64,000 bases of DNA from Tipula vernalis (taxonomy: Eukaryota; Arthropoda; Insecta; Diptera; Tipulidae), in assembly GCA_958295665.1 (NCBI GenBank), contig OY282560.1, forward strand, positions 92,108,311 through 92,172,310. Direction: 5' to 3'. The translations under genes and the position numbers were made by a program. Positions 1 through 14,346 of the stretch are shown here, one piece after another. Within the stretch, counting starts at the first letter, position 1. Each line of letters begins with the position of its first letter. The notes under the pieces are model-generated. The model saw nothing but the letters and a program-made list of their open reading frames with translations, was not told where the DNA came from and ran no database searches.

Positions 1-59
1 TACAGATGCCTCCAACTTTGCACTAGGTGCAGTTTTATCTCAGGAGGGAAGGCCAATCA
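1..59 (+). pseudogene. Errantivirus pol, start of RNase H (left piece of an interrupted gene)
   Basis: Frame 2 reads TDASNFALGAVLSQ, the opening of a Ty3/gypsy-type RNase H domain. The reading frame stops at base 59 and resumes at 8049 with the next part of the same domain, so one pol gene is split by the DNA transposon at 60-8046. The rest of the element (5' LTR, gag, protease, RT) lies left of the window. Confidence 0.85.
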
Positions 60-1240
60 CACACTTAAAAATATTACTATTTATTCCGATACAAGCGTTA
101 TATCGTTTCGTATGCGATACAACATCAATCGAAATAAGATTTGAAGCTTACATCGAAATAAATATCGATACAGTTAAAATAAAATTAGATATAAATTTTG
201 TATCGAAGACATGACTTTTACTTTAGGTGTACGACTAGTAAAACATTTATAATGTTACTGTAGAATAAATGTAGACGTACTGGAATTTAATGTTATCCCC
301 TATTGGAATTAAAGATAGAGTTAAAGGCAATACAATTTAAATTTAAAAATTTCATTTAAACTGTGCTGTAAATTATGTTTAGTTGATAAAAAATTAGTAA
401 TTCGGGAAACATAAGCGCTAAGTGGTTAAATGCTGTTTAGCGCCATGATTACATTTTTATTAACAATATCAAGTACATTTTGCATTTAACAATTCCAATT
501 TCAGTTAGTTTGCTGAATTAGTTGGCACAAACTATAATTTCAATAAGGTCTTTATCTCATTCCTGTCTAAATGGGAAGTTAAACGAAAATTTCTTTTCAT
601 ACCAAACAATTTTTTATACTAGAAAGAAACAAAAATACTTAACTTAAATTTTGTTATTGTTCTCTCTTTTTTCATTCAACACAAAAACTAAAAACGACAT
701 CGAACGAAAGTACCGTTCTGCTGCAAATGTACAAACCAGGGCTTACTACTAGATGTAACAACAAATTGTTTGATTTTTTTGTTACCTAAATGTTTTTTAT
801 TTGTATCATTCAAACAATTACTGTACATAGAACTATTAACGACATTTATTGTACATATTGTGTAACTGACATAAATATTAGTTACAAATTTAAAATAATA
901 TCTAAGTAAATTTAAAAAAACCATTGCACTTTCAATTAATTCTTTGTATCCTTGCATTGGTCGCATCCCTGACTTGTTTTTGATTTTTTAGTTTTCTCAT
1001 ACTGTTGAGAAATTTCATAAAGCGTTGGTTCGATTCGTCGGTAGTTTTTATTTAATTTTCGGTTATAATATATTGTTTCTAAAAATAAATAAATTCTGCG
1101 TGTTATGTAGTTTTAGAGTATAATACGCAAGTGAGTTTTTAATATACTTTATATTGTGTGTTCTAAAGTTTTAACAATTTGGTGTAGTGCATCCAATCGA
1201 TTTATTATTTTTGTGTAATATAACGGTAATTTGTTTCGCA

Positions 1241-1250
1241 CTATATAAAA
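1241..1250 (+). promoter_or_regulatory. TATA-like box of the first transposon gene
   Basis: CTATATAAAA directly precedes the first ATG (1251). If it is a TATA box, transcription would start about 1268-1280 and the usable start would be the in-frame ATG at 1272 or 1287. Confidence 0.35.
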
Positions 1251-4033
1251 ATGGAAAGTTATTATATTAAAATGAGTTTTAGAGGAATGGTGAACTACGT
1301 AAAAGTGCAGAAACATGAGGAATCGTGGGAGTATACCGATTTTCTATTAACAGGTTAGTAATGCCAATTAAATTTTTCATTGTATGACGATATGACGCTT
1401 CGATAAAAAAATTGTTTCCTATGTGATTGATGAAAAATTGATTTCAATCAAATATTTTTGATTTACATCAAATATTTTTTTCCGAAAGAACTTCACATTA
1501 TATTTCATTGACGAAGATATTGAATGTACGTTAATTTTAGTTTATACATTTATTTAATGATGTTAATTTGTTATTTATTACGGTTTTCAGCGTCAATGTA
1601 TGCAAATATATCTGTTTATAAAATCGATTATCTCACTGATCAGCAAGGAATAAAAATTCCTGAGGAGAATTTTTTAGATATTGTTAATCAATACAAAAAT
1701 CACCCAGAATTTCAACTGAAGATAGTCCTGAAACACGACCATGACGGTGAGTAATAATGGAATGAAATAACCTAACTTAACCCTCATGTGAATGAAGAAA
1801 AAATATCTTAATTTCAGTAATTAGTACCCACATGAATTTTGTATGGAAATTTATTTTTTCCACGTTCGTCCAAGTTGTAATATTTCTCAATTTTAAATAT
1901 GATCGTAATCTACCAATTGAACTAGAAGTTCTCATAAAATTTAAAGTTTTATTGGAAGAAAAATATAAAAAAATAGATGTCTAAAAGAGCAAAAGGTACC
2001 CGGGTACCCACGTCACTCACATTAGGGTTGAAAATTAATTCAAATAAATACATATTCCGAATTTTGAATAATGCATTTTTTTTACTTTCTATTGACTACA
2101 ATCATCGGATAATCAAGGGACACCAGTTTCTCGTCAAAATTGTCGCTCTGACCATCAAATGTACATAAATGCAGAAGTAATTTAAACATTAATATTAAAT
2201 GGTAACGTATTATCACTAACTAAATCTCTATGATTTCAGGACTTAGAAAGTTATATTTCTAAAACGGCAAGCTCGTATGTGTTATGCAAAAAATTTAAGC
2301 AGCAGGAAACATTGAAAGGTTTGTCTGACATCGAAAGAAGAGCAATTATCCGAGAGAGTGTAGACTATTTAATATCAAGATTTTCTTACCACCCGGAACC
2401 AAACCACACCGCAGCATTAACCTTAGCCGTCGTTGAATTATTCCCTCAATTGAGAACAAACGAGCAAAAGAATGGTGGAATAGTAAGTTACCTTAGTTAG
2501 TTTATTCTATATATATATATCACATATCTGTATGTTGGTGCAAGATCAACCTACCGTCAATTTTTATGTTTAATTTAATTAATTAATTTAATTAATTTAA
2601 TTAATTTAATTAATTTAATTAATTTAATTAATTTAATTAATTTAATTAATTTAACTTTTAATTTTATTAATTTAATAATTTTATTAAATGAATAATATTA
2701 TAATTAAATAAATTAAATTAATTAAATTATAATAATTTTGAATTTAAAATTAAAAGTGAGAATTTAGTTTCCTTATGTGATAATTCACTGAGAATAGTAA
2801 AAGCTGACTAAAAGCTTTACTAAAAAGAGTAAATGAATAAATAGAAATTTAAATTAAATTAAATTAAATTAATTGTTTGTTATATCTTGTTTAAGGATGC
2901 TTTGTACAACCGAAAAACAAATCGTGGCTTTATAATCGACAGACTCAACCGAGTGAGACAGAAGTTATATGCAATTGAAAAGGAAACAGGACAACATTCC
3001 ACTCGTAAACGTAGCGCAAGTGGATCATCAGTCATTCCAAGTCCACCCGATCCTTTATTTGATCTAGAGAACGACGAAAATTTCTTAATATTACGAAACT
3101 TAAACGTGCAAACCCAGAAACACTTGATTAAACAAAAATTACGCGAAACATTGCCTATGCGAATGAATAATATTTTTCAGGGACCCCTTGAAGTCAAAGC
3201 TATATCAAAAAATTTCCCATTTTTCTTCACTTCTCCTGATTTAGTAAGTACATAGAAGTAACTTAAATATTTTCGTAATTATCTATTTTAAGAATATTTT
3301 TTTTTTTCAGATTCAATATGATTTCGAAATTCGCTACCCAAGTAGCCACGATTTGTTTTTAAATAAATGGAAGACGGCGTCCAAATATATTGAAAATATT
3401 TATGTTGTCACCAAAGGTCCTAACTTAAAACGTATACCTGAGATAGAAGGTATAGTGAAATATTATAGAGATGATATGTGGATATTAAAAAATATTTATT
3501 TCAGAATTGTTACCATCTATGAGAGATTTTTTCTACCTTGTAAATATTTTACCTCAAGTGGTGGCCAGGAAGCTATCGGCCAATACCCGCAGAGAACCTT
3601 TTGTTAAAATTTTAAATAAAATATTAGTCTTCAGAACGGTAATTAATTTTGTCTAGATTATACACGACAGAAAACTACTAATGAATTTGATTTATAATTT
3701 AAGCTTAACCTACCGCCCGAAGAATTAAGAGACAATGAATTAAAACATCCGTACATTATTGCGGAAGGAGCAAATAAGTCGGCCATTTCACAATATTATT
3801 TATGTATTGAAAAGGAGCTGATAATTTTGCCAAATAACTACAATTTGATTGAAACAGTTGATTTACTTTTTAAAGCGCATTATGTTTTTTGGCAAAACTT
3901 CGATAGTTCCTTAAAAACATGCTGGACATTCATAAGCCATTACTTTTATAAAATTGAAACAACGGGATCTATAACATCCAGAATCAAGGAAATTGCTTCC
4001 AAATTGGATCTACAGCAGGCACAAGATATTTAA
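1251..4033 (+). CDS. Transposon-borne SAMD3-like/uncharacterised protein, eight exons
   Basis: I assembled eight exons in one frame: 1251-1353, 1591-1746, 1818-1978, 2240-2482, 2896-3243, 3311-3449, 3505-3638 and 3704-4033. They give 537 codons plus TAA. The N-terminus (FRGMVNYVKV, then DYLTDQQGIKI) looks like a PB1/ubiquitin-like domain. The middle has an L-S-D-x-E-R-R segment leading to AVVELFPQLR, then RLNRVRQKL. The C-terminus has VDLLFKAHYVFWQNF followed by a WTFISHYFYKI segment. This order is typical of a large group of animal proteins annotated as uncharacterised or 'SAM domain-containing protein 3-like'; I see no clear SAM domain. Function is unknown; an accessory role for the downstream transposase is inference. 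Exon 3 uses a weak donor (GTCTAA) that removes a stop. The start is uncertain (1251, 1272 or 1287). It lies 57 bp upstream of the Tnp2-like gene. Confidence 0.72.
2573..2655. repeat. AATTAATTT microsatellite-like repeat in intron
   Basis: About nine tandem copies of a 9-bp AATTAATTT unit lie in intron 4 of the transposon gene. More AT-only sequence follows to about 2750. Confidence 0.8.
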
Positions 4034-4089
4034 ATTAATATCGAGAAGATACACAAGTAATTATTTTTTAAAATCAGTAACGGTTCAAT

Positions 4090-6252
4090 ATGTTTTTTTG
4101 TTATTTTTGTAATGAGTTGTTTTATGAGCTAGACAAAGTAATTTTACACCTTAAATATTATGAATTCGTCAAAGAAAAATCTCAACTGAAAATTCAATGT
4201 GTTAAAGATAAAAGTTGCTCTAAAACTTTTCAAACATTTTTTGCACTTAAATCGCATCTTAGTAAATGTCACTTGGAAATTATAGAGCCCGATATTTACG
4301 GACAAGATAGATTGGAGGTACCCAATTCGGAAACTTCAATTCCGATAATAGATAGTTCTAATTATAAGAACTCGCTAGAAAAACTCGTAGAAATTGAAGC
4401 TCCAACTCTAAATGATTTTGAAAATCAGATGAAACGTTTTTACACGAAATTAAATCTTTTAGGTTTGCCAGAAGAAACATTGTCAGAAATTTTTTATGAA
4501 TCCAAAATTGTTACTGAATGCGCGATCAATATTATATCCGCCCCAGATGAAATTAAAAATACCCCATTTAATAAACTCAAAATATCTGAAACAATGAAAA
4601 AATTCTGTTCGAAATATAAAAGGAAAAAAATATTTTTAGAGAATTCTTTTTATGTTGAACCAGAACAGATCCCTATCGGATTTAGGTGGGAGTCAAGATT
4701 TAATGCAAATTCTTCAACTTACATGAGAAAGGTGATTCAAAATATATTTCAATTTGTACCCGTTACAAAAACAATAAAAAGTATTTTTAAAAATGATTAT
4801 TTCCTACAATTATTTAAAGATTTTAATAGTTCCCACATTTGTGTCAATGGCACATATAGCTATGCTTGTTGTAGTGGTCGCTTCCAAACTATTAAAGGAG
4901 GTTTCAATAACAAACTTATAATTTTAATACAACTTTACTACGATGATTTTGAGGTTGCTAAAGTACTTGGAAGTAAAACCATCATTCATAAAGTCGGGGC
5001 TATTTACTTTACTTTAGTAAATTGTCCTACTTATCTGAAATCAAATCTTCAAAATATATTTTTAGTTAGCCTTTTTTATGTAAACGATCTTTATAATGAA
5101 TTTAATTTAAATTCTATTTTAAAACCAATTGTAGAAGACCTAAAAGTTCTTGAAACTGAAGGCTTAGTTATAGAAAATCTCGGATTAGTATTTGGGACAA
5201 TTTTTTCATTATCTCACGACAATCTTGCTGCAAATGATTTAATTGGGTTTGCCAAATCTTTTTCCGCAAAATATTTTTGCAGATTTTGTGCGATGCCTTC
5301 CGAAGACACTAAGAAATGTACGACTGAAGAACCTGATCTGTTAAGACTTGACGACTGCTACTCAATTTTAAGAGACCAACCTCCATCGAAGAAGTTAAAG
5401 ATGACAGAAACCAAAGGTATAAGTCGAAATTCTGTGTTAAACGATTTGAAATACTTTCACACAATTAAAAACTACAGCGTTGACTTATTGCATGATGGTC
5501 TTGAGGGTTTTGTTGTGTTATCAATCAAATATCAGTTAGAGTTTTTCCTCGAACAGAAAATTTTTCATAATATCGACCAAATAAATGATAGCATTTTGGC
5601 GTATAATTTCGGATTTATAGATCGAAAAAATAAACCATCTAACATTAACCTTGATAGAAGCAATCTAGGGCAAAATGCTATTCAAATTTTATGTTTATTA
5701 ACACATTTTCCTTTAATTTTTGAACGATTTTATAACCCAATCCATCAACCTCAGTGGGAAACTATTTTAAGTGTGATTAAAATAATAAATGTATTATTTC
5801 GCTATGAAATAACAAATATTGATATAGGCAATTTAAAAAAATTGATAACAACTCATTTGGAATCTATCAAAAATATATTTAAAAAACAACTTACACCTAA
5901 ACAATATTTTCTGCTGCACTACCCTACAGTTATCAAGCAAATGGGGCCGGTCATACATCTATGGACTATGCGATATGAAGGCAAACATCGTTTTTTTAAG
6001 AAAAGTATTACACCAAATTTTAAAAATATTTGTCATACGTTTGCTCAGATTCATCAACAGATGATGTGTAGTGTGTGGTCTAATTTAACATTTGAACCGA
6101 AAGTAAAGAAAGGAAAACGAGTACTGTATAAATTAAAAAATAATTATAAATGTCTTGACGAATTTTCCAGTCCAATATATACTTTGTCTTATTTTAGCAG
6201 CAATTTTCACTACAAACGGGATTTTTTTATTTTGAAAAAAGTCTACTCATGA
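4090..6252 (+). CDS. Tnp2/CACTA-like transposase with N-terminal zinc fingers
   Basis: 720 residues without introns. The N-terminus has two degenerate C2H2-type fingers (CYFC near residue 4; C-x5-C with H-x4-H near 37-61). Later motifs in order are SHDNLAANDLIGF (about 375-387), CRFC (397-400), NYSVDLLHDGLEGF (about 461-474) and GPVIHLWTMRYEGKH (about 619-633). The last two correspond in spacing and content to the Tnp2 'DxMHNL' and 'GPV..W..PFER' motifs, so D380 or D379, D465/D469 and E630 are candidate catalytic acids; this assignment is inference. Closely similar uncharacterised proteins are common in cnidarians, fish and insects. Frame 0 ends at TGA 6250-6252, but coding-like sequence goes on in a shifted frame to 6493 (next entry). 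It probably acts on the CACACT ends. Confidence 0.75.
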   Translation: MFFCYFCNELFYELDKVILHLKYYEFVKEKSQLKIQCVKDKSCSKTFQTFFALKSHLSKCHLEIIEPDIYGQDRLEVPNSETSIPIIDSSNYKNSLEKLVEIEAPTLNDFENQMKRFYTKLNLLGLPEETLSEIFYESKIVTECAINIISAPDEIKNTPFNKLKISETMKKFCSKYKRKKIFLENSFYVEPEQIPIGFRWESRFNANSSTYMRKVIQNIFQFVPVTKTIKSIFKNDYFLQLFKDFNSSHICVNGTYSYACCSGRFQTIKGGFNNKLIILIQLYYDDFEVAKVLGSKTIIHKVGAIYFTLVNCPTYLKSNLQNIFLVSLFYVNDLYNEFNLNSILKPIVEDLKVLETEGLVIENLGLVFGTIFSLSHDNLAANDLIGFAKSFSAKYFCRFCAMPSEDTKKCTTEEPDLLRLDDCYSILRDQPPSKKLKMTETKGISRNSVLNDLKYFHTIKNYSVDLLHDGLEGFVVLSIKYQLEFFLEQKIFHNIDQINDSILAYNFGFIDRKNKPSNINLDRSNLGQNAIQILCLLTHFPLIFERFYNPIHQPQWETILSVIKIINVLFRYEITNIDIGNLKKLITTHLESIKNIFKKQLTPKQYFLLHYPTVIKQMGPVIHLWTMRYEGKHRFFKKSITPNFKNICHTFAQIHQQMMCSVWSNLTFEPKVKKGKRVLYKLKNNYKCLDEFSSPIYTLSYFSSNFHYKRDFFILKKVYS

Positions 6253-6493
6253 AATAATTCATTTATACAAAATCGTAGATATTCTTGAATGTAATAAAGA
6301 AATTTTATTTCTTCTAAATGAATTTATTGCCATATATGATAGCATTTATTGTGGTTATCAATTGATTGATAAAAATTTTAACCCTGTTTGTATTAATTTT
6401 AATTGTTTACAGTACAAAAAAACATACGAAAAACATTTTTCCAGTAAACATGAAAAACATTATATATTAGGTTGCAATGTGCAAGATGTGTAG
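6234..6493 (+). pseudogene. Frameshifted C-terminal part of the Tnp2-like protein
   Basis: After a run of six A (about 6234-6240) a shifted frame reads about 80 codons without a stop to TAG 6491-6493, including DILECNKEILFLLNEF and KHFSSKHEKHY. Composition matches the preceding gene, so a one-base indel in the A-run, or a programmed shift, separates the last part of the protein. Confidence 0.6.
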
Positions 6494-7249
6494 TTAACAC
6501 TTACAATATTAGTACATCATAAGTATTACAATGCCGATTATTTCAGATACATAAATATAAGAATTTTTATTTTTTAATTAAATTTTCGCAAGTATGTAGT
6601 AGAACTAGTACTTAACTATTAGTATAATTTTTTAAAATATAATTTTAAGTATATTTTCTATCTATTGAATTATTAAAGATTAAATGAAGAAATAAATCTT
6701 TCAAATTTTTATAATGATTTTATTTTTTATTTAAACCTGGAATTTATTTTAACTCACCATCTCCTATTTTAAAGTAAAATTACGTCATTTTCTCTTTTTG
6801 ATGAAAAGATTCCTTCAAAAAACGTGGTAAGTATGTGACTTTTTTTTGGTGGTTTGGCGACTATTGGAGGGGGGGATCAAAGTTGAGTAGATTAATCTAC
6901 CAGCTCCGTAACCTTCTAGTAGGGTGCGCATCACGTGAGCTGTTCTGGTCTTGTCATTAGGCAGCTGCGTGATGGGTACAATTGTGTAAGGGGTAACCTG
7001 TTCACAATTCGCAAGTGTACGTACTGCCTCCTCGTGGCAACCACTGGTAACTAAGGCCACTTGGCACATTTTTGGCCATTTGGCACAGGCTAAAGTACGG
7101 CACTAAAGGAGAAAACCTTGACAAAAAACCCTAATCTAAGGTGGAACAGCATATGCCGAAAGATGAATGGCTGATAGGTTAATCAGCCCAAAATATGCGG
7201 ACTCTGGAAACCAGGCACCCTCCAGTTTTATTTAGCCTTCCTGTAGTAA
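6494..7249. other. Transposon 3' non-coding region with unassigned inserted sequence
   Basis: AT-rich downstream sequence runs to about 6790 and has several AATAAA-like sites. From about 6800 to 7190 the composition becomes GC-richer. Read on the - strand it ends in an A-rich stretch (AAACCACCAAAAAAAAGTC), like the 3' end of a non-LTR element, but I cannot assign a family. An 84-codon open frame there (6815-7069, -) has no recognisable domain. Confidence 0.4.
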
Positions 7250-7618
7250 AGCTGGGTGACCTACAGGTGATTTGCAATTCCGAGCAACTCGTAAGAGTAA
7301 AATCAAACGGAATACGGGGCAGGAGTAGGAATATACGAGAATGGGACAACCCTCTCGAGGTCCTTGAGCTCCAATGCTACCGTCTTTCTAGCGGAACTAC
7401 ATGCTGTAGTAAACATCTAGGAGGGAGAGCAATAAGCCCAGATAGTATGTATCACGTACCGGGAGGCAGTATCGTCAGGTTCATTAAGAACCTGAATATT
7501 GACTGGACGGATAATTAAGCAGAGGCCAGCACAATAGATCTTTTAGGTCGCAGTGCGAAGTGGCTGATCGCCCGCATGGCCTCCCCAATAATAATAATAA
7601 TAATAATAATGTGACATT
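7250..7618 (+). mobile_element. Fragment of an RNase H-bearing non-LTR retrotransposon (I/LOA-like)
   Basis: One frame reads GAGVGIYENGT and, after a small shift, NATVFLAELHAVVNI, which is the RNase H signature of non-LTR elements. The fragment ends in an (AAT)8 tail at 7587-7610, as in I-type elements with triplet tails. It is 5' truncated, frameshifted and nested in the CACTA-like element. Confidence 0.55.
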
Positions 7619-8046
7619 TTTTCTTCCGATGTATTTTAATTCAAATTACAATGTAGAGTGTATCGAACATGATTCGACGAATACTGCTTCTAAAGATACA
7701 TCAAATTTATTTACATGTAATTTGCGATATATTTTGAAGCAAACGTCTGACGGTTTTTGACACAAAGTTTTTTACACAATTCAACATAAGATATATCGAT
7801 TCTTTTTTGCTACATTTTACTTCTAATTTAATTGCAGCTTGCATCGAATTATTTTGATGTAGATTAGCTTCATAATTAGTCATAAGTTGCATCAGATATG
7901 ATTTAAATGCAATTTGTTTCATATTTTGCTGCAACCTATAACTTTTATTTTATGATGTAAGGCTTACTTCAAAAAACGTAGTCATATTGCGCTCGAGTCA
8001 TATGCGTTGTTATTTGTATCGTATATCATAATTTTTTTCGAGTGTG
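7619..8046. other. Right subterminal region of the CACTA-like element
   Basis: No gene. Repeated short motifs related to TGTATCGAA and TTGCATC occur in both orientations and match motifs at 100-240 on the left side. They are candidate transposase binding sites. Confidence 0.5.
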
Positions 8047-8048
8047 CA

Positions 8049-8974
8049 CGTTTCTCTCAAGAACCTTAGATAAAACGGAAGAAAATTATGCGGCTAATGA
8101 AAAGGAAATGCTCGCCATAATTTGGGCGTTAACATCTTTGAGAAATTTCCTTTACGGATCAAAGAAAGTGAAGATCTTCACAGACCACCAACCATTGACA
8201 TATATGCCCTAAGCAATAAAAATAACAACTCCAAGATGAAACGGTGGAAAGCTATCCTGGAAGAGTACAATTATGAGTTAAAATATCAAAATGTCAGTCA
8301 CACAACATAGCGACAAAAGTTCTCCGGATGATCTGGTCCCCACAGTCGAAACCCCAGTTAATGTATTCCGCAATCAACTAATTTTAAACGTAGGCGAGGG
8401 AAGTTCGTACCAAATAATAAACCCTTTTCCAAAATATTCCAGGCACATTATTACACAAGCAAGTTTTTCAAATTCAGACATTATAAATTTTTTTAAACGT
8501 TACCTTAATCCATTCACGATTGAGACAACAGAAAATAAATTGGTTTTACCGGCAATTGACAAATTCAGTAAACTCGCCTTCTGCAGACCGTTAAAATCCA
8601 GAGCGACAGAAGACATCAAACAACCACTTAGAGATAAACTCTTTTTCTTTAGTGTACCAGAAATTGTGGTAATTGACAATGAAAAATCCTTCAACTCGAA
8701 TTCCATAATATCAATGATGGAAGATGGTTTAAACATAAAAGTCTTCAAAACTCCCCCATACAAAAGTGAAGTGAATGGCCAAGTGGAAAGATTTTACTCG
8801 ACACTCTCAGAAGTGATGAGATGTCTAAAGGCTGATGGGGTAGAGCGAACTTTTAATGAACTACTAGAGAGAGCGATTAATGAATATAACCACTCAATCC
8901 ACTCGACAACTTGCAAACGGCCAGTGGAAATATATTTTGGCAGAATCCCTGACACAGATCCTGAACAATTATAA
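8049..8974 (+). pseudogene. Errantivirus pol, rest of RNase H and integrase (broken)
   Basis: This continues the domain begun at 1-59. SRTLDKTEENYAANEKEMLA, FTDHQPLTYM and the tether region lead into integrase. RNase H ends with a frameshift and stop near 8300. From 8291 another frame carries integrase: AIDKFSKLAFCRPL, then VVIDNEKSF and the E of GQVERFYSTL. The HHCC zinc domain and the beginning of the catalytic core are missing, by an internal deletion near 8540-8550. The gene is therefore defective in at least two places as well as split by the transposon. The closest groups by motif are the 17.6/297/gypsy errantiviruses of Diptera. Confidence 0.85.
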
Positions 8975-10286
8975 CAAATCCGACAAGATACCATACTAAA
9001 GATAAAACATACCAGGCAGGTCAAGTAATCTATGTAAAACATAACAAAAGATTAGGATCGAAATTAACAGAACGATTCAAACCCGAAATAGTAACGGAAG
9101 ACAGAAATACAACAGTTATAACGGAGTCCGGAAGAGTAATTCACAAAAGCAATATTAAATCCTAACAAATAAAAACTTATTTTTATTACAGTTACGCCTT
9201 AAGCAACACATTGGCAGAAATTCAAATTATTGATTACACAAATTCTCAAATCATCTCAATTAGCACAGGTCAAGCAAAAATGCAGGACGGAAACTTCAAA
9301 TTAATCCATATAATTGAATTAGACAAACACCAAAATTACATAGACAGAATGCAATCCATTCTGGACAAAGAAATGACAATAGATCACCCATTGCACTCCT
9401 ATTTGAGGCATGAACTCTCGGAATTACAAACATTACTGGACAGCCTTAGAATACATAAATCCAAACGATCCTTAAACTTTATATGTAGTGCATGGAAATG
9501 GATAGCCGGAAATCCTGATCACGAGGATTTCAAAGTAATTAAAGATAAAATGAATAATGCATTAGAGAATAACTACAACCAAGTAGTTATAAACCGATTG
9601 TACAATGAAAGAATCAATAATATTACAAAAATGGCTAATTTAATTATTAACGAAATTCACAAAGAAAATAAATTAAACGACCCATTAGCATTAAATATTC
9701 AATATAAATTAAAACTAATGAAAGAAGAATTGGTAAATATTAAGTACGCAATTCACTGGGCTAAAGCAGGGATTATAAATTCACTCGTTTTATCAAATTC
9801 TGAAATTAAATTAGCCATTAATACACTGGAAACCGAAAATTTACCATATAGTACTCCCGAGGAGGCGTTAGATTTCGCTAATATCAAAATCATTAGTAGC
9901 AAATTGTGTCTACTTTATATTGTGTACATTCCGGTAACAACTCCAGAACTATATGATAAATTATTGGTCAAACCGGTCAGAAGAAACGATAAGGTGACCG
10001 AAATTGAGTATGAAAATGTCATTAAAAATCACGATAAGATTTACAGTATTTTTTTTTTTTTTTTTTTTTATTATAAAACATTTTTAGAGCTCTGTAATTT
10101 AACATTACGTACAACTTAGTTAAATTATTTACATTTAAATTTTATTTATTTATTTTATAATTTAAAATATTTCGTAAATTAAAGAGAAAGTATTTAAGGA
10201 AAAATTTTATTTAGAAAAACCTTACTGTATATAATTTAAAACAAAAACAATAAATAATAAACATGAAAAGTTAAGAAATCAAATTT

Positions 10287-12986
10287 CTAATTAAAGTGTT
10301 TTCCGAATATATGTAAACATGACATAGAGAATTTTTGGTTTAATCTGGAAATATAAGTTGATAAAGTCTCAATATTGCATTCAGTGTGCAAGTCGATTGT
10401 TGGATATCTGCGGGGGAGATTTCTTATAATTTTCAAACAACGGTTCTGTATAATCTGTAATCTCTTTTTATGTGTATAGGCTGCTTGGCTCCAGATTTGG
10501 CTACCATACGTGATTGTTGCCCTAATTATCATTTTGTAAATTAGGAGTTTATTATTCTCAGATAATTTTGAGTTACGGCATAATAATGGATATAAAATTC
10601 TGGTTAATTTTTGTGCTCTTTCAATTGTATGTTCAATCTGATTTTGAAATAACATTTTTTGATCAAACCAGAGGCCTAGGTATTTGACTTTTTTACACCA
10701 TTCAATAGGAGTGTCATCTACTATCACGTGAAGACCCCCGGTTAAAAACCTAGTTGCTCTCCTCCGGGTAAAAAATATTGCTTGAGTTTTGGACGGGTTT
10801 AATTTGATATCCCATTGAGCACAATATCTAGATAATGTATTCATGTTAATTTGTAAGTTATTTATTACGATATTGGGATCGGTAGATGACGTAAAGATTA
10901 CTGTATCATCGGCATATTGGGCAAAATGGATATTTGAAAAAAATTTCCCAATATCTGCCATGTACAGATTATAAAGAATTGGTGATAGAACGGCCCCTTG
11001 AGGAACACCTGCATCAATGTGATGTACATTCGATTTCTCATTAGACATATAGACGAAAAACCGTCTTTCATTGAGATAATTATAAATGATTTTAATGAGA
11101 TAAATTGGGAAATTAAATTGAATTAGTTTGTAAATAAGTCCCATGTGCCAAACACGATCGAATGCTTTTTCAATGTCAAATAGGATAAGACCCGTCGATT
11201 GTTTTTGGTTGAATGCAGATCTGACATGTTGATAAATGCGAAGCACCTGATGTTGAGCTGAAATCTCATCACGAAAGCCGAATTGTTCATCTGGTAGGAT
11301 ATTTTTAATTTTAATAAATTCGTTACAACGAATTTTGGGAAGTATTTCGAAAATTTTTCCAAGTAAATTTAATAGGCTTATTGGTCGATAGCTGGATAGT
11401 TTAGATTTATCTTTTCCGGGTTTTAAAATTGGTATAACTTTTGCCATTTTCCAATGTTTGGAAAAATAAGAGAATTTCATACAAGCGTTAAATAAATAAG
11501 AAATAAATATATGCCCTTTTATAGGAAGGTTCTTAATTAATATACCATTTATTGTATCATACCCAGGAGATTTACGTGGCTTGATAGATCTGATGATTTG
11601 CTTTATCTCTTTAGGAGTTGTCATATCAAATTCATGGGACGATAACAATCCGGCATGAGTAGATAGAAAACTATTGACTTCTGAAGATATATGTTGGGCA
11701 AAAGTAGATTGATTGTGATTGTTTTTATTATGAATTGCAGCAAATTGTGCTGCGAAGGATTCACATTTTTCAATATTAGTAATCGAAATATGGTTTTCTT
11801 TATCAAATAAGGGGAGTATTTGTTTACTTCGTTGTCGCAGGTTTTTACTGACTGCCCACATTTTATTTTTATTACGGTCATTTTGGATTTCTTCAATCAT
11901 ATTATGCCATTTATTATTTCTCAGAATTTGAAATTCAGCCTTGATGCGTTGATGCAACTCGTTAACAATAGTTTTAAGCATAGGATCACGAGAACGTTGC
12001 CATTGGCGTCTACGAGTGTTTCTAAGCCGAATTAACATTTTGGTTGCTTCTGGGATTTTGAATTCAATATTTTTTGATATAGGTATATTACAAGGCACGC
12101 ACTTATCTTTGGCAGATAAGATGATATTATTTAAATTACCAACTAGCTCATCTATATCGCTACATGATTTAATATTTCGAATTGGAGATTCGCTAGTTAG
12201 ATTTAGATTGTTATTAATGCATGATTTATATAGTTGCCAATTTGCCTTAGAATAATTAGATCTACAAAAACCCTCATAATATTGGGGATTGCAGTCCAAT
12301 TGAAAATGTACCGGAAGGTGGTCAGAACTTAAATCAGGGCGAGATTTCATATTATGAATGAATTGTGGGCAATTTGTCAGAGCTATGTCCAGAGTAGATC
12401 CATATTTTGAATTGTGATTAAAATGTGTTGGAGAACTTGGAAATTTAATAACAAATTTACTATCTAACATTTCGTTGTATAAGATTGTCCCAGCTCTATT
12501 ATTTCTGTAGCAATTCCAATGCGGATGTTTAGCGTTCAGATCTCCACCTAAAATGAAATTAGTTTGGAATGATGTAAGGTATTGTATGTCTGATTTAAAT
12601 CTGTTTAGAATTATATTGGATGTTCCTCCTTTAAAATAAGCGGCTATGAGTTTTATTTTACCACGAATTGTAATAAGTTCTATTGCAAAAGCCTCTATAG
12701 CTTGTAAATTCAAAGTGGGTAGCAAACAGTGTTGAATATTTTGTTTAATTATAAAAGCAACACCACCATAGCCACTCGATTTTCTATTTAAATTATACAC
12801 TTTAAATTCCGGGTCAAAGAGTGAAACATCGTCTTTTAGCCAGGTTTCCGAAATTATGGCAACATGCACATTAAGATTTTTCATGTAAGAGAATGTTTCA
12901 TTTGCCTTATTTTTTATACTTTGCGCATTCCAGATAAAAATATTTAATGCGTTATTATTCAGATTCGCAGAACCATTATTTAACAT
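10287..12986 (-). CDS. Jockey-like ORF2: endonuclease and reverse transcriptase
   Basis: 899 residues, apparently full length. The N-terminal AP-type endonuclease has WNAQSIKNK near residue 20, GGDLNAKHPHWN near 150 and the SSDHLPVHF motif near 225. The RT has PGYDTINGILIKNLP, YRPISLLNLLGKIFE, the LFDIEKAFDRVWH motif, GVPQGAVLSPILYNL and the catalytic AQYADDT. The C-terminal part ends in the usual short domain after RT, with no RNase H. The protein nicks target DNA and reverse-transcribes its own RNA in the nucleus. The start ATG lies inside the end of ORF1, suggesting translation by reinitiation or a shift. No stop or frameshift is visible, so this copy could be active. Confidence 0.92.
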   Translation of the reverse strand: MLNNGSANLNNNALNIFIWNAQSIKNKANETFSYMKNLNVHVAIISETWLKDDVSLFDPEFKVYNLNRKSSGYGGVAFIIKQNIQHCLLPTLNLQAIEAFAIELITIRGKIKLIAAYFKGGTSNIILNRFKSDIQYLTSFQTNFILGGDLNAKHPHWNCYRNNRAGTILYNEMLDSKFVIKFPSSPTHFNHNSKYGSTLDIALTNCPQFIHNMKSRPDLSSDHLPVHFQLDCNPQYYEGFCRSNYSKANWQLYKSCINNNLNLTSESPIRNIKSCSDIDELVGNLNNIILSAKDKCVPCNIPISKNIEFKIPEATKMLIRLRNTRRRQWQRSRDPMLKTIVNELHQRIKAEFQILRNNKWHNMIEEIQNDRNKNKMWAVSKNLRQRSKQILPLFDKENHISITNIEKCESFAAQFAAIHNKNNHNQSTFAQHISSEVNSFLSTHAGLLSSHEFDMTTPKEIKQIIRSIKPRKSPGYDTINGILIKNLPIKGHIFISYLFNACMKFSYFSKHWKMAKVIPILKPGKDKSKLSSYRPISLLNLLGKIFEILPKIRCNEFIKIKNILPDEQFGFRDEISAQHQVLRIYQHVRSAFNQKQSTGLILFDIEKAFDRVWHMGLIYKLIQFNFPIYLIKIIYNYLNERRFFVYMSNEKSNVHHIDAGVPQGAVLSPILYNLYMADIGKFFSNIHFAQYADDTVIFTSSTDPNIVINNLQINMNTLSRYCAQWDIKLNPSKTQAIFFTRRRATRFLTGGLHVIVDDTPIEWCKKVKYLGLWFDQKMLFQNQIEHTIERAQKLTRILYPLLCRNSKLSENNKLLIYKMIIRATITYGSQIWSQAAYTHKKRLQIIQNRCLKIIRNLPRRYPTIDLHTECNIETLSTYISRLNQKFSMSCLHIFGKHFN

Positions 12987-14346
12987 TATTATAGAGATAG
13001 GTTACAGTTAGGCGAGTTAAAACAGAAAATTGTTCCGCTTTTGTCTTACAAACTGAAAGACTCGAGACCATATCACTTACCAGAGTCAAAACTTCTTCAT
13101 ACGTAAATAAAGAATCCTTTGAAGAGTTTACCTGTCCAGATTCATTTGCGGCAGCCAATTTGTTTTGGTTTACACTATAATTAGAATTTGATGGTTTATT
13201 ATTAAATATTGAATTCCAAGACTGATGCATCTGTGTTGGCCGAGGTGAACTAAGTTCCGGAAATTTTTCAGCATTAAACGAATTCGGAGGAGGCCGTATT
13301 GAAGATCCCCTAATATTATTTATATTGTTACTTTTTATATTCCGTTTAATTTTGATGTTTTCTTGTATGAGGATGTATTCCTTCAACTTTGGACAGTTGG
13401 GTGAGTTTGCCATATGGTTTCCTTGACACAAGCAGCATTTCAAATTGGCATCTAAAACTTTGCATTGTAACGTATCATGAGGGTCACCACATTTGAGACA
13501 TCTTAGTATTTTATAGCAGTAGGATGTACCATGGCCATACATACCGCATCTGCGACATTGCGTTGGAGAAATTTTCCTTGGAGTATGTATCCGAAATGAT
13601 ACAATTATATGGTTGAGACTTTTTATCTTTTTTATAATCTGGAATTTTATGTTATTTGCATTAAATTTGATTAGATAAAGACCATTTTGCATCGAGCCTG
13701 CTTTAGGATTAAGTTCAGTTATTTCGATGATATCGTCACTGTTTATGTCTTTATTAGTGTATTCATTATCAGTGAGTACTTCTTTAATCTCATCCGTACT
13801 AATTTTTTTGGGTAGACCGTTTAATATTACTTTTAATATTTTTTCTGATGGAGAACGATAAGTAAAATGCTCAATATTCGCTTCTGTCAGTTGTTTACGT
13901 AGATTGTTGTAATCTAACTGAATGTGTAGTGAAATTTTTATCCCAATGCTGCATAATTTAATCAAAAATTTATTAATGTTAAGTTGTTTGAGAATATCCC
14001 TCAATTTGTTTTCAGTGATGTTTTGTATTATTATAGGCGTTATAATAACTTTGTTATTTTTATTTTTTGAATGAATCTCAGAATCGAGATCAAACTCAAT
14101 ACCGTTACCATCATCATCAACTAGATTGATGAATGAGTTTTTTGTTGATAAATTTGTTGATGTTGAGCCAGACATATTACTGTTATGTTGTAGAGAGTTA
14201 ATCACGCGTTGATTTTCTCTAATCATTTGTTGTAAACTTGTTTCATCGTATGTTTTTTGTTTTTGAGTTTTGAACGGTATCACTGTTAACGTCGCATTAG
14301 AGCGACGTTTAGTTCCACTCACGTTAGATTGTTTTATTTTATACAC
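12976..14346 (-). CDS. Jockey-like ORF1: Gag-like RNA-binding protein
   Basis: 456 residues. The middle holds an RRM-like/PRE_C2HC-type region (LRKQLTEANIEHFTYR to KVILNGLPKKIS). Three zinc knuckles follow: CRRCGMYGHGTSYC, CLKCGDPHDTLQC and CCLCQGNHMANSPNC. This set of knuckles is standard for insect Jockey-clade ORF1 proteins, which coat the element RNA and carry it to the nucleus. The C-terminal part is low in recognisable motifs. The reading frame is uninterrupted and overlaps ORF2 by 11 bp. Confidence 0.9.
   Translation of the reverse strand: MYKIKQSNVSGTKRRSNATLTVIPFKTQKQKTYDETSLQQMIRENQRVINSLQHNSNMSGSTSTNLSTKNSFINLVDDDGNGIEFDLDSEIHSKNKNNKVIITPIIIQNITENKLRDILKQLNINKFLIKLCSIGIKISLHIQLDYNNLRKQLTEANIEHFTYRSPSEKILKVILNGLPKKISTDEIKEVLTDNEYTNKDINSDDIIEITELNPKAGSMQNGLYLIKFNANNIKFQIIKKIKSLNHIIVSFRIHTPRKISPTQCRRCGMYGHGTSYCYKILRCLKCGDPHDTLQCKVLDANLKCCLCQGNHMANSPNCPKLKEYILIQENIKIKRNIKSNNINNIRGSSIRPPPNSFNAEKFPELSSPRPTQMHQSWNSIFNNKPSNSNYSVNQNKLAAANESGQVNSSKDSLFTYEEVLTLVSDMVSSLSVCKTKAEQFSVLTRLTVTYLYNNVK

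Follow-up and report, generated by a model that had tools for sequence, protein, structure and literature searches.

A two-gene, EnSpm-like transposon in Tipula vernalis with a conserved partner gene beside a RAG1/Transib-like transposase

In the plant transposon En/Spm two proteins are required: TnpD, which carries the tnp2 domain, and TnpA, which binds the subterminal repeats (PMC2613891, PMC1636069). Members of the CMCT clade (EnSpm/CACTA, Mirage, Chapaev, Transib and kin) have a DDE triad in which a C(2)C and an H(3-4)H pattern lie between the second D and the E (PMC12730594). In animals, TRC elements such as SmTRC1 have been described with a D-x-[LM]-H-x3-L-G motif, 2-bp duplications and CCC ends (DeMarco 2006, PMC1636069). 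An element of 7987 bp was analysed that spans positions 60 to 8046 of a 64-kb window of Tipula vernalis DNA, the window being the whole stretch examined. It has CAC...GTG-type ends, a 2-bp pyrimidine-purine duplication, a transposase with a RAG1/Transib-like fold and the residue signature of the clade, a multi-exon neighbour gene under selection and subterminal repeats, which were found in most families tested. We explain it as one copy of an EnSpm-like, two-gene cut-and-paste element that belongs to the CMCT clade, inhabits an animal host and has an obligate, probably TnpA-like partner protein, and put the probability of this explanation as a whole at about 0.8.

Two genes lie on the forward strand, the partner upstream of the transposase. 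Genes, strand and coordinates agree with the earlier note, apart from the spacer, given there as 57 bp, which measures 56 bp from the partner stop to the transposase ATG. The spliced, eight-exon structure proposed for the partner was also borne out: the gene (1251-4033) has GT..AG introns and 503 codons.

1251..1353, + strand: partner exon 1
1591..1746, + strand: partner exon 2
2118..2176, + strand: partner exon 3
2240..2482, + strand: partner exon 4
2896..3243, + strand: partner exon 5, under purifying selection between families
3311..3449, + strand: partner exon 6
3505..3638, + strand: partner exon 7
3704..4033, + strand: partner exon 8 with the stop, under purifying selection; structure model with a predicted local distance difference test (pLDDT) score of 86.5
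4090..6252, + strand: intronless transposase frame, first 720 residues, C2H2-like fingers followed by a RAG1/Transib-like core
6236..6493, + strand: out-of-frame remainder of the transposase, about 85 residues

Splice-aware alignment of the window partner to four other families recovered eight exons in two of them, of which one contains a stop and a frame break; in the remaining two, each with two frame breaks, six and seven exons were found. AT-rich TTAATTAA-type repeats are present in partner intron 4 (2575-2890).

Relatives were sought in the 1.27-Gb assembly. The transposase protein gave at least 66 matches, mostly at about 97%, 68%, 62-66% and 52% identity, a lower bound since the best 62 of 4690 first-look candidates were scored. 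With the 5' 301 bp, 40 matches were obtained (20 at 98-100%, 19 at 70% over 148 bp and one at 84% over 63 bp). A second search started from the relative P0008, which shares 38% identity with the window protein, and revealed additional families at 35-45% identity to P0008. Of the 55 matches scored there, 20 were near-identical copies of family G (19 with the same score; one at G000:C1:28394101-28396464), whose matched transposase frame is free of stops and mostly open over 803 codons. These copies suggest a very recent spread of this family.

The partner was found directly upstream of the transposase and on the same strand in 29 of 30 loci, the window's own included; at the exception, L033, the transposase match starts only at residue 251. 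The upstream stretches of seven families from the P0008 search all carry the partner on the same strand (best exon E 1.1e-18 to 4.4e-44), in six to nine exons, with a break or stops in four of the seven. The two genes are thus paired in 36 of 37 loci of this genome, within which the general pairing suspected in the earlier note holds. Eleven aligned partner proteins share 55% down to 25% identity with that of the window, and 73 columns are conserved in at least nine of them. Accompanying the transposase in nearly every related copy examined, the second protein appears to be a working part of the transposon.

Selection on both genes was estimated from the ratio of nonsynonymous (dN) to synonymous (dS) substitution rates. 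Between families (dS 1.2-3) the median dN/dS was 0.07 for partner exon 8, 0.14 for exon 5 and 0.11 for the transposase; among near-identical copies (dS < 0.15) it was 0.27, 0.55 and 1.01, respectively. The absolute values are rough, with dS near saturation and pairs that are not independent. In our reading, low values between families and high values among near-identical copies point to selection during the mobile phase of the element, followed by decay.

The protein encoded at 4090-6252 had been described as a Tnp2-like zinc-finger protein of 720 residues. Fingers and an RNase H fold are present, and the 720 residues are only the front of a longer protein: the frame is broken near 6240, where six of eight sister copies compared stay open, and full-length relatives reach about 800 residues. 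Structure comparison placed a RAG1/Transib-like RNase H fold at residues 106-672 approximately, with 8-13% identity in the structural alignments. The key residues are D285, D377, C397, C400, (Y606), H610 and E630. The C(2)C and H(3-4)H pattern between the second D and the E was found in 27 aligned rows, 25 of which extend to the H and E; the window copy is without the first His, carrying Y at residue 606 versus H in 29 other copies compared. In the HDxLEG motif H, D, E and G are invariant in 27 of 27 rows and L varies. The Transposase_21 (tnp2) domain was matched by four of the 27 rows at E <= 0.1 (best 2.3e-05), the window protein itself giving no match, and DUF4218 by ten.

The termini and the regions next to them are as follows.

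58..59: left target-site duplication, CA
60..73, + strand: 5' terminal inverted repeat CACACTTAAAAATA, matching the 3' end at 11 of 14 positions, the first six perfectly
60..309: 5' subterminal region with TTGCATCRAA-like repeats, two sites with at most one mismatch in 250 bp, at element positions 89 and 139
7609..8046: 3' subterminal region with TTGCATCRAA-like repeats, four sites with at most one mismatch in the last 450 bp, nested insert left out
8033..8046, + strand: 3' terminal inverted repeat TTTTTTCGAGTGTG
8047..8048: right target-site duplication, CA

The CACACT inverted ends and CA duplication lie where the earlier note had placed them. Read inward from the right side, the 3' terminus is CACACTCGAAAAAA; CA stands directly outside both ends, and the flanks read by eye as one retroelement RNase H. 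A scan for CAC ends (left up to 1200, right from 6500 to 10000) yielded a single pair with at least six matched bases and a flanking duplication, the 60/8046 termini.

Ten further copies of the window family all begin with CACACTTAAAAATA, in flanks that differ among copies, and CACACTTAAAAAT was present at 10/10 left ends of this family and 7/7 left ends fetched from the 68% family. The right end was recognisable in eight of the ten copies, each with an exact 2-bp duplication (TA 4, CA 2, TG 2); an extension to 3 bp was seen in none of these eight. Both ends were found in six of eight elements examined from the 68% family, all six with a 2-bp duplication (TA 4, CA 1, CG 1). The duplication is TA in the 63% family (L041 with L043) and in the 64% family (L040 with L044), the right end of the latter being CACAGT. 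Two inspected copies of family G, with ends CACTCTC..GAGTGTG, have CA and TA, and one copy of family H has CA. Pooled with the window, a 2-bp duplication was present in 20 of 20 readable elements, out of 26 examined; in the other six one end was not recognisable. Homologues in this one genome are bounded by inverted ends, of the types CACACT, CACAGT or CACTCT; none of the three refuting outcomes named in the earlier note (genes that never co-occur, no inverted ends, no RNase H fold) was seen within it. Termini are CA..TG in 19 of the 20, the exception being the right end of window-family copy L014, changed to AGTATA within a TA repeat. All 20 duplicated dinucleotides are pyrimidine-purine (TA 11, CA 6, TG 2, CG 1), steps that make up 0.238 of the window; such a preference, mostly for TA, finds no mention for elements of this kind in the portions of the cited literature available. 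For 16 elements (window, 68%, 63% and 64% families) the best matches to the window termini were taken as ends, independently of the duplication; the 5' end of G and the end pair of H were settled partly by the duplication itself.

The motif TTGCATCRAA was picked after inspecting the ends of four families. Allowing one mismatch, their end regions (250 bp on the 5' side; on the 3' side 450 bp or, for the 68% family, 700 bp) contain 6, 10, 7 and 11 sites. The interiors, which are far longer, contain 3, 6, 4 and 1, and the end counts were matched by 0 of 300 shuffles. Positions 139 from the 5' end and -207 from the 3' end are common to the four families; 39 and 89 occur in three each. In the window copy taken by itself the exact core GCATCR shows no enrichment, its count being reached by 46 of 300 shuffles. 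Outside the motif choice, family G has four sites versus 0.37 expected (0 of 300 shuffles) and family H has none, so that five of six families are positive.

The partner had been called SAMD3-like, a label that is unproven. No relatives were found in 5.8 billion proteins, where candidates had to share 5-residue words and the SAMD3 sequence itself was not compared, and a scan of viral contigs found none. No SAM family was matched at E <= 1 by any of five partner proteins (its presence in proteins labelled SAMD3-like was not checked), nor did the partner show a recognisable DNA-binding domain. Among the papers retrieved, none reports a transposon partner of SAMD3-like or similar type, as judged by titles and abstract openings.

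In the two-gene explanation, the transposase would pair the ends, cut them and join them to the two target strands at a spacing of 2 bp, usually at TA. Its obligate partner would be the second protein, most likely a TnpA-like one that binds the subterminal repeats, the transposase or both. What is observed is the steady pairing in this genome; the end-binding role is the most economical reading, since the element, like En/Spm, combines CAC ends and subterminal repeats with a CMCT transposase and another conserved gene. That two unrelated neighbours or nested elements adjoin by chance is practically inconceivable: the genes keep order, strand and closeness in 36 of 37 loci, with ends of a shared type in six families, and the pairing already refutes it. 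The partner might instead be a host gene that an ancestral element picked up once and carries as a passenger, helping indirectly or not at all. Gene capture by transposons does occur, and no homologue or domain explaining the partner's role was found. A passenger would, however, be expected to decay, and this gene persists in the same 36 of 37 loci, at 25-55% identity to the window's in ten families and with dN/dS of about 0.1 between families, which makes simple capture quite improbable.

The remaining alternatives concern what the partner does. RAG1 works together with RAG2, a Kelch/PHD protein, and the transposase is a structural relative of RAG1; the partner could accordingly be a RAG2-like cofactor acting on the catalytic complex and not on the repeats. 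We consider this unlikely, as the model of exon 8, the only part of the partner folded, gave no Kelch/PHD match. A somewhat better, still doubtful case can be made for a transposase that recognises the ends alone, its N-terminal C2H2-like fingers binding the repeats, with the partner serving in regulation or against silencing. In plants, TnpA has an additional action on promoter methylation (PMC1636069). Nothing speaks directly against this division of labour, which is compatible with the two-gene explanation.

The window copy itself is probably dead, judging from its broken transposase frame, the loss of a zinc-ligand-type His and a nested insert. Most window-family copies carry stops elsewhere in the transposase.

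6847..7608: nested insert, 762 bp, with an (AAT)n tail and a duplication of about 14 bp

The insert is absent from all eight sister copies alignable on both sides and looks like a 5'-truncated non-long terminal repeat (non-LTR) retrotransposon. The host site (1-57 and 8049-10119) resembles a Gypsy-type retroelement, by eye from its RNase H flanks. An integrase-like frame there (8282-8971) gave DDE_3 at E 1.1e-05 and rve at E 8.7e-05, both below the cut-off, and is followed by a long frame at 9166-10119. Further on, a 904-codon open frame on the - strand (10287-13001) reads by eye like a non-LTR retrotransposon endonuclease/reverse transcriptase.

To our knowledge, plants are the only organisms in which bench work has resolved two-component transposases of the CACTA kind. 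The partner described here, conserved and under selection beside a RAG1-fold transposase, is a concrete candidate for an animal counterpart, and family G, apparently recently mobile on account of its 20 near-identical copies without stops in the matched frame, suits tests of end recognition. Animal proteins annotated only as 'uncharacterised' or 'SAMD3-like' form a large group. We give even odds to the reading in which they serve as the dedicated second component of an EnSpm-like transposon lineage present across animals, or are encoded by host genes that arose from it; the result would be a two-protein system of RAG1 fold, comparable to TnpD/TnpA and RAG1/RAG2. Should the partner type turn out to be widespread, re-annotation as transposon components could follow for many of the 'uncharacterised' proteins.

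Transib elements produce target duplications of 5 bp. The window-type element resembles Transib and RAG1 in the fold of residues 106-672 and in the D-D-CxxC-HxxxH-E layout, and differs by its 2-bp duplication, N-terminal fingers and partner gene, with structural-alignment identity of only 8-13%. Its residue signature, RAG1/Transib-like RNase H fold, mostly CA..TG termini and a duplication within 2-5 bp place it in the CMCT clade; EnSpm/CACTA proper, in plants and in fungal EnSpm, has 3 bp.

With the plant CACTA elements En/Spm, Tam1 and Tgmt* it shares CAC ends, subterminal repeats and the combination of a transposase, possibly of tnp2 type here, with a second protein. It differs from Tgmt*, for which a three-base duplication is described (PMC2613891), and from Spm, whose proteins come from one alternatively spliced unit (PMC1636069). 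No relation between partner and TnpA was found, no direct comparison having been made. The earlier note had seen in the HDxLEG proteins an animal CACTA lineage. A CACTA-like transposon it is, with the invariant residues given above; such a lineage is not new as such, TRC elements being known (PMC1636069). As described there, these have a Transposase_21-type transposase in animals, a type to which the Tipula transposase may also belong, and likewise 2-bp duplications, a D-x-[LM]-H motif and further short proteins. Their ends start with CCC, whereas those of window-type elements start with CAC, and the short proteins of SmTRC1 are alternative splicing products without similarity to other sequences (PMC1636069), unlike the Tipula partner, which has a conserved gene of its own, lying upstream of the intronless transposase. 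Fungal EnSpm, Plavaka and ESTA are CMCT transposons with an extra gene, there a TET/JBP dioxygenase, and with other ends and duplications (ESTA: TA; PlavakaA: TGT ends); they indicate that CMCT elements can keep extra genes (PMC12730594).
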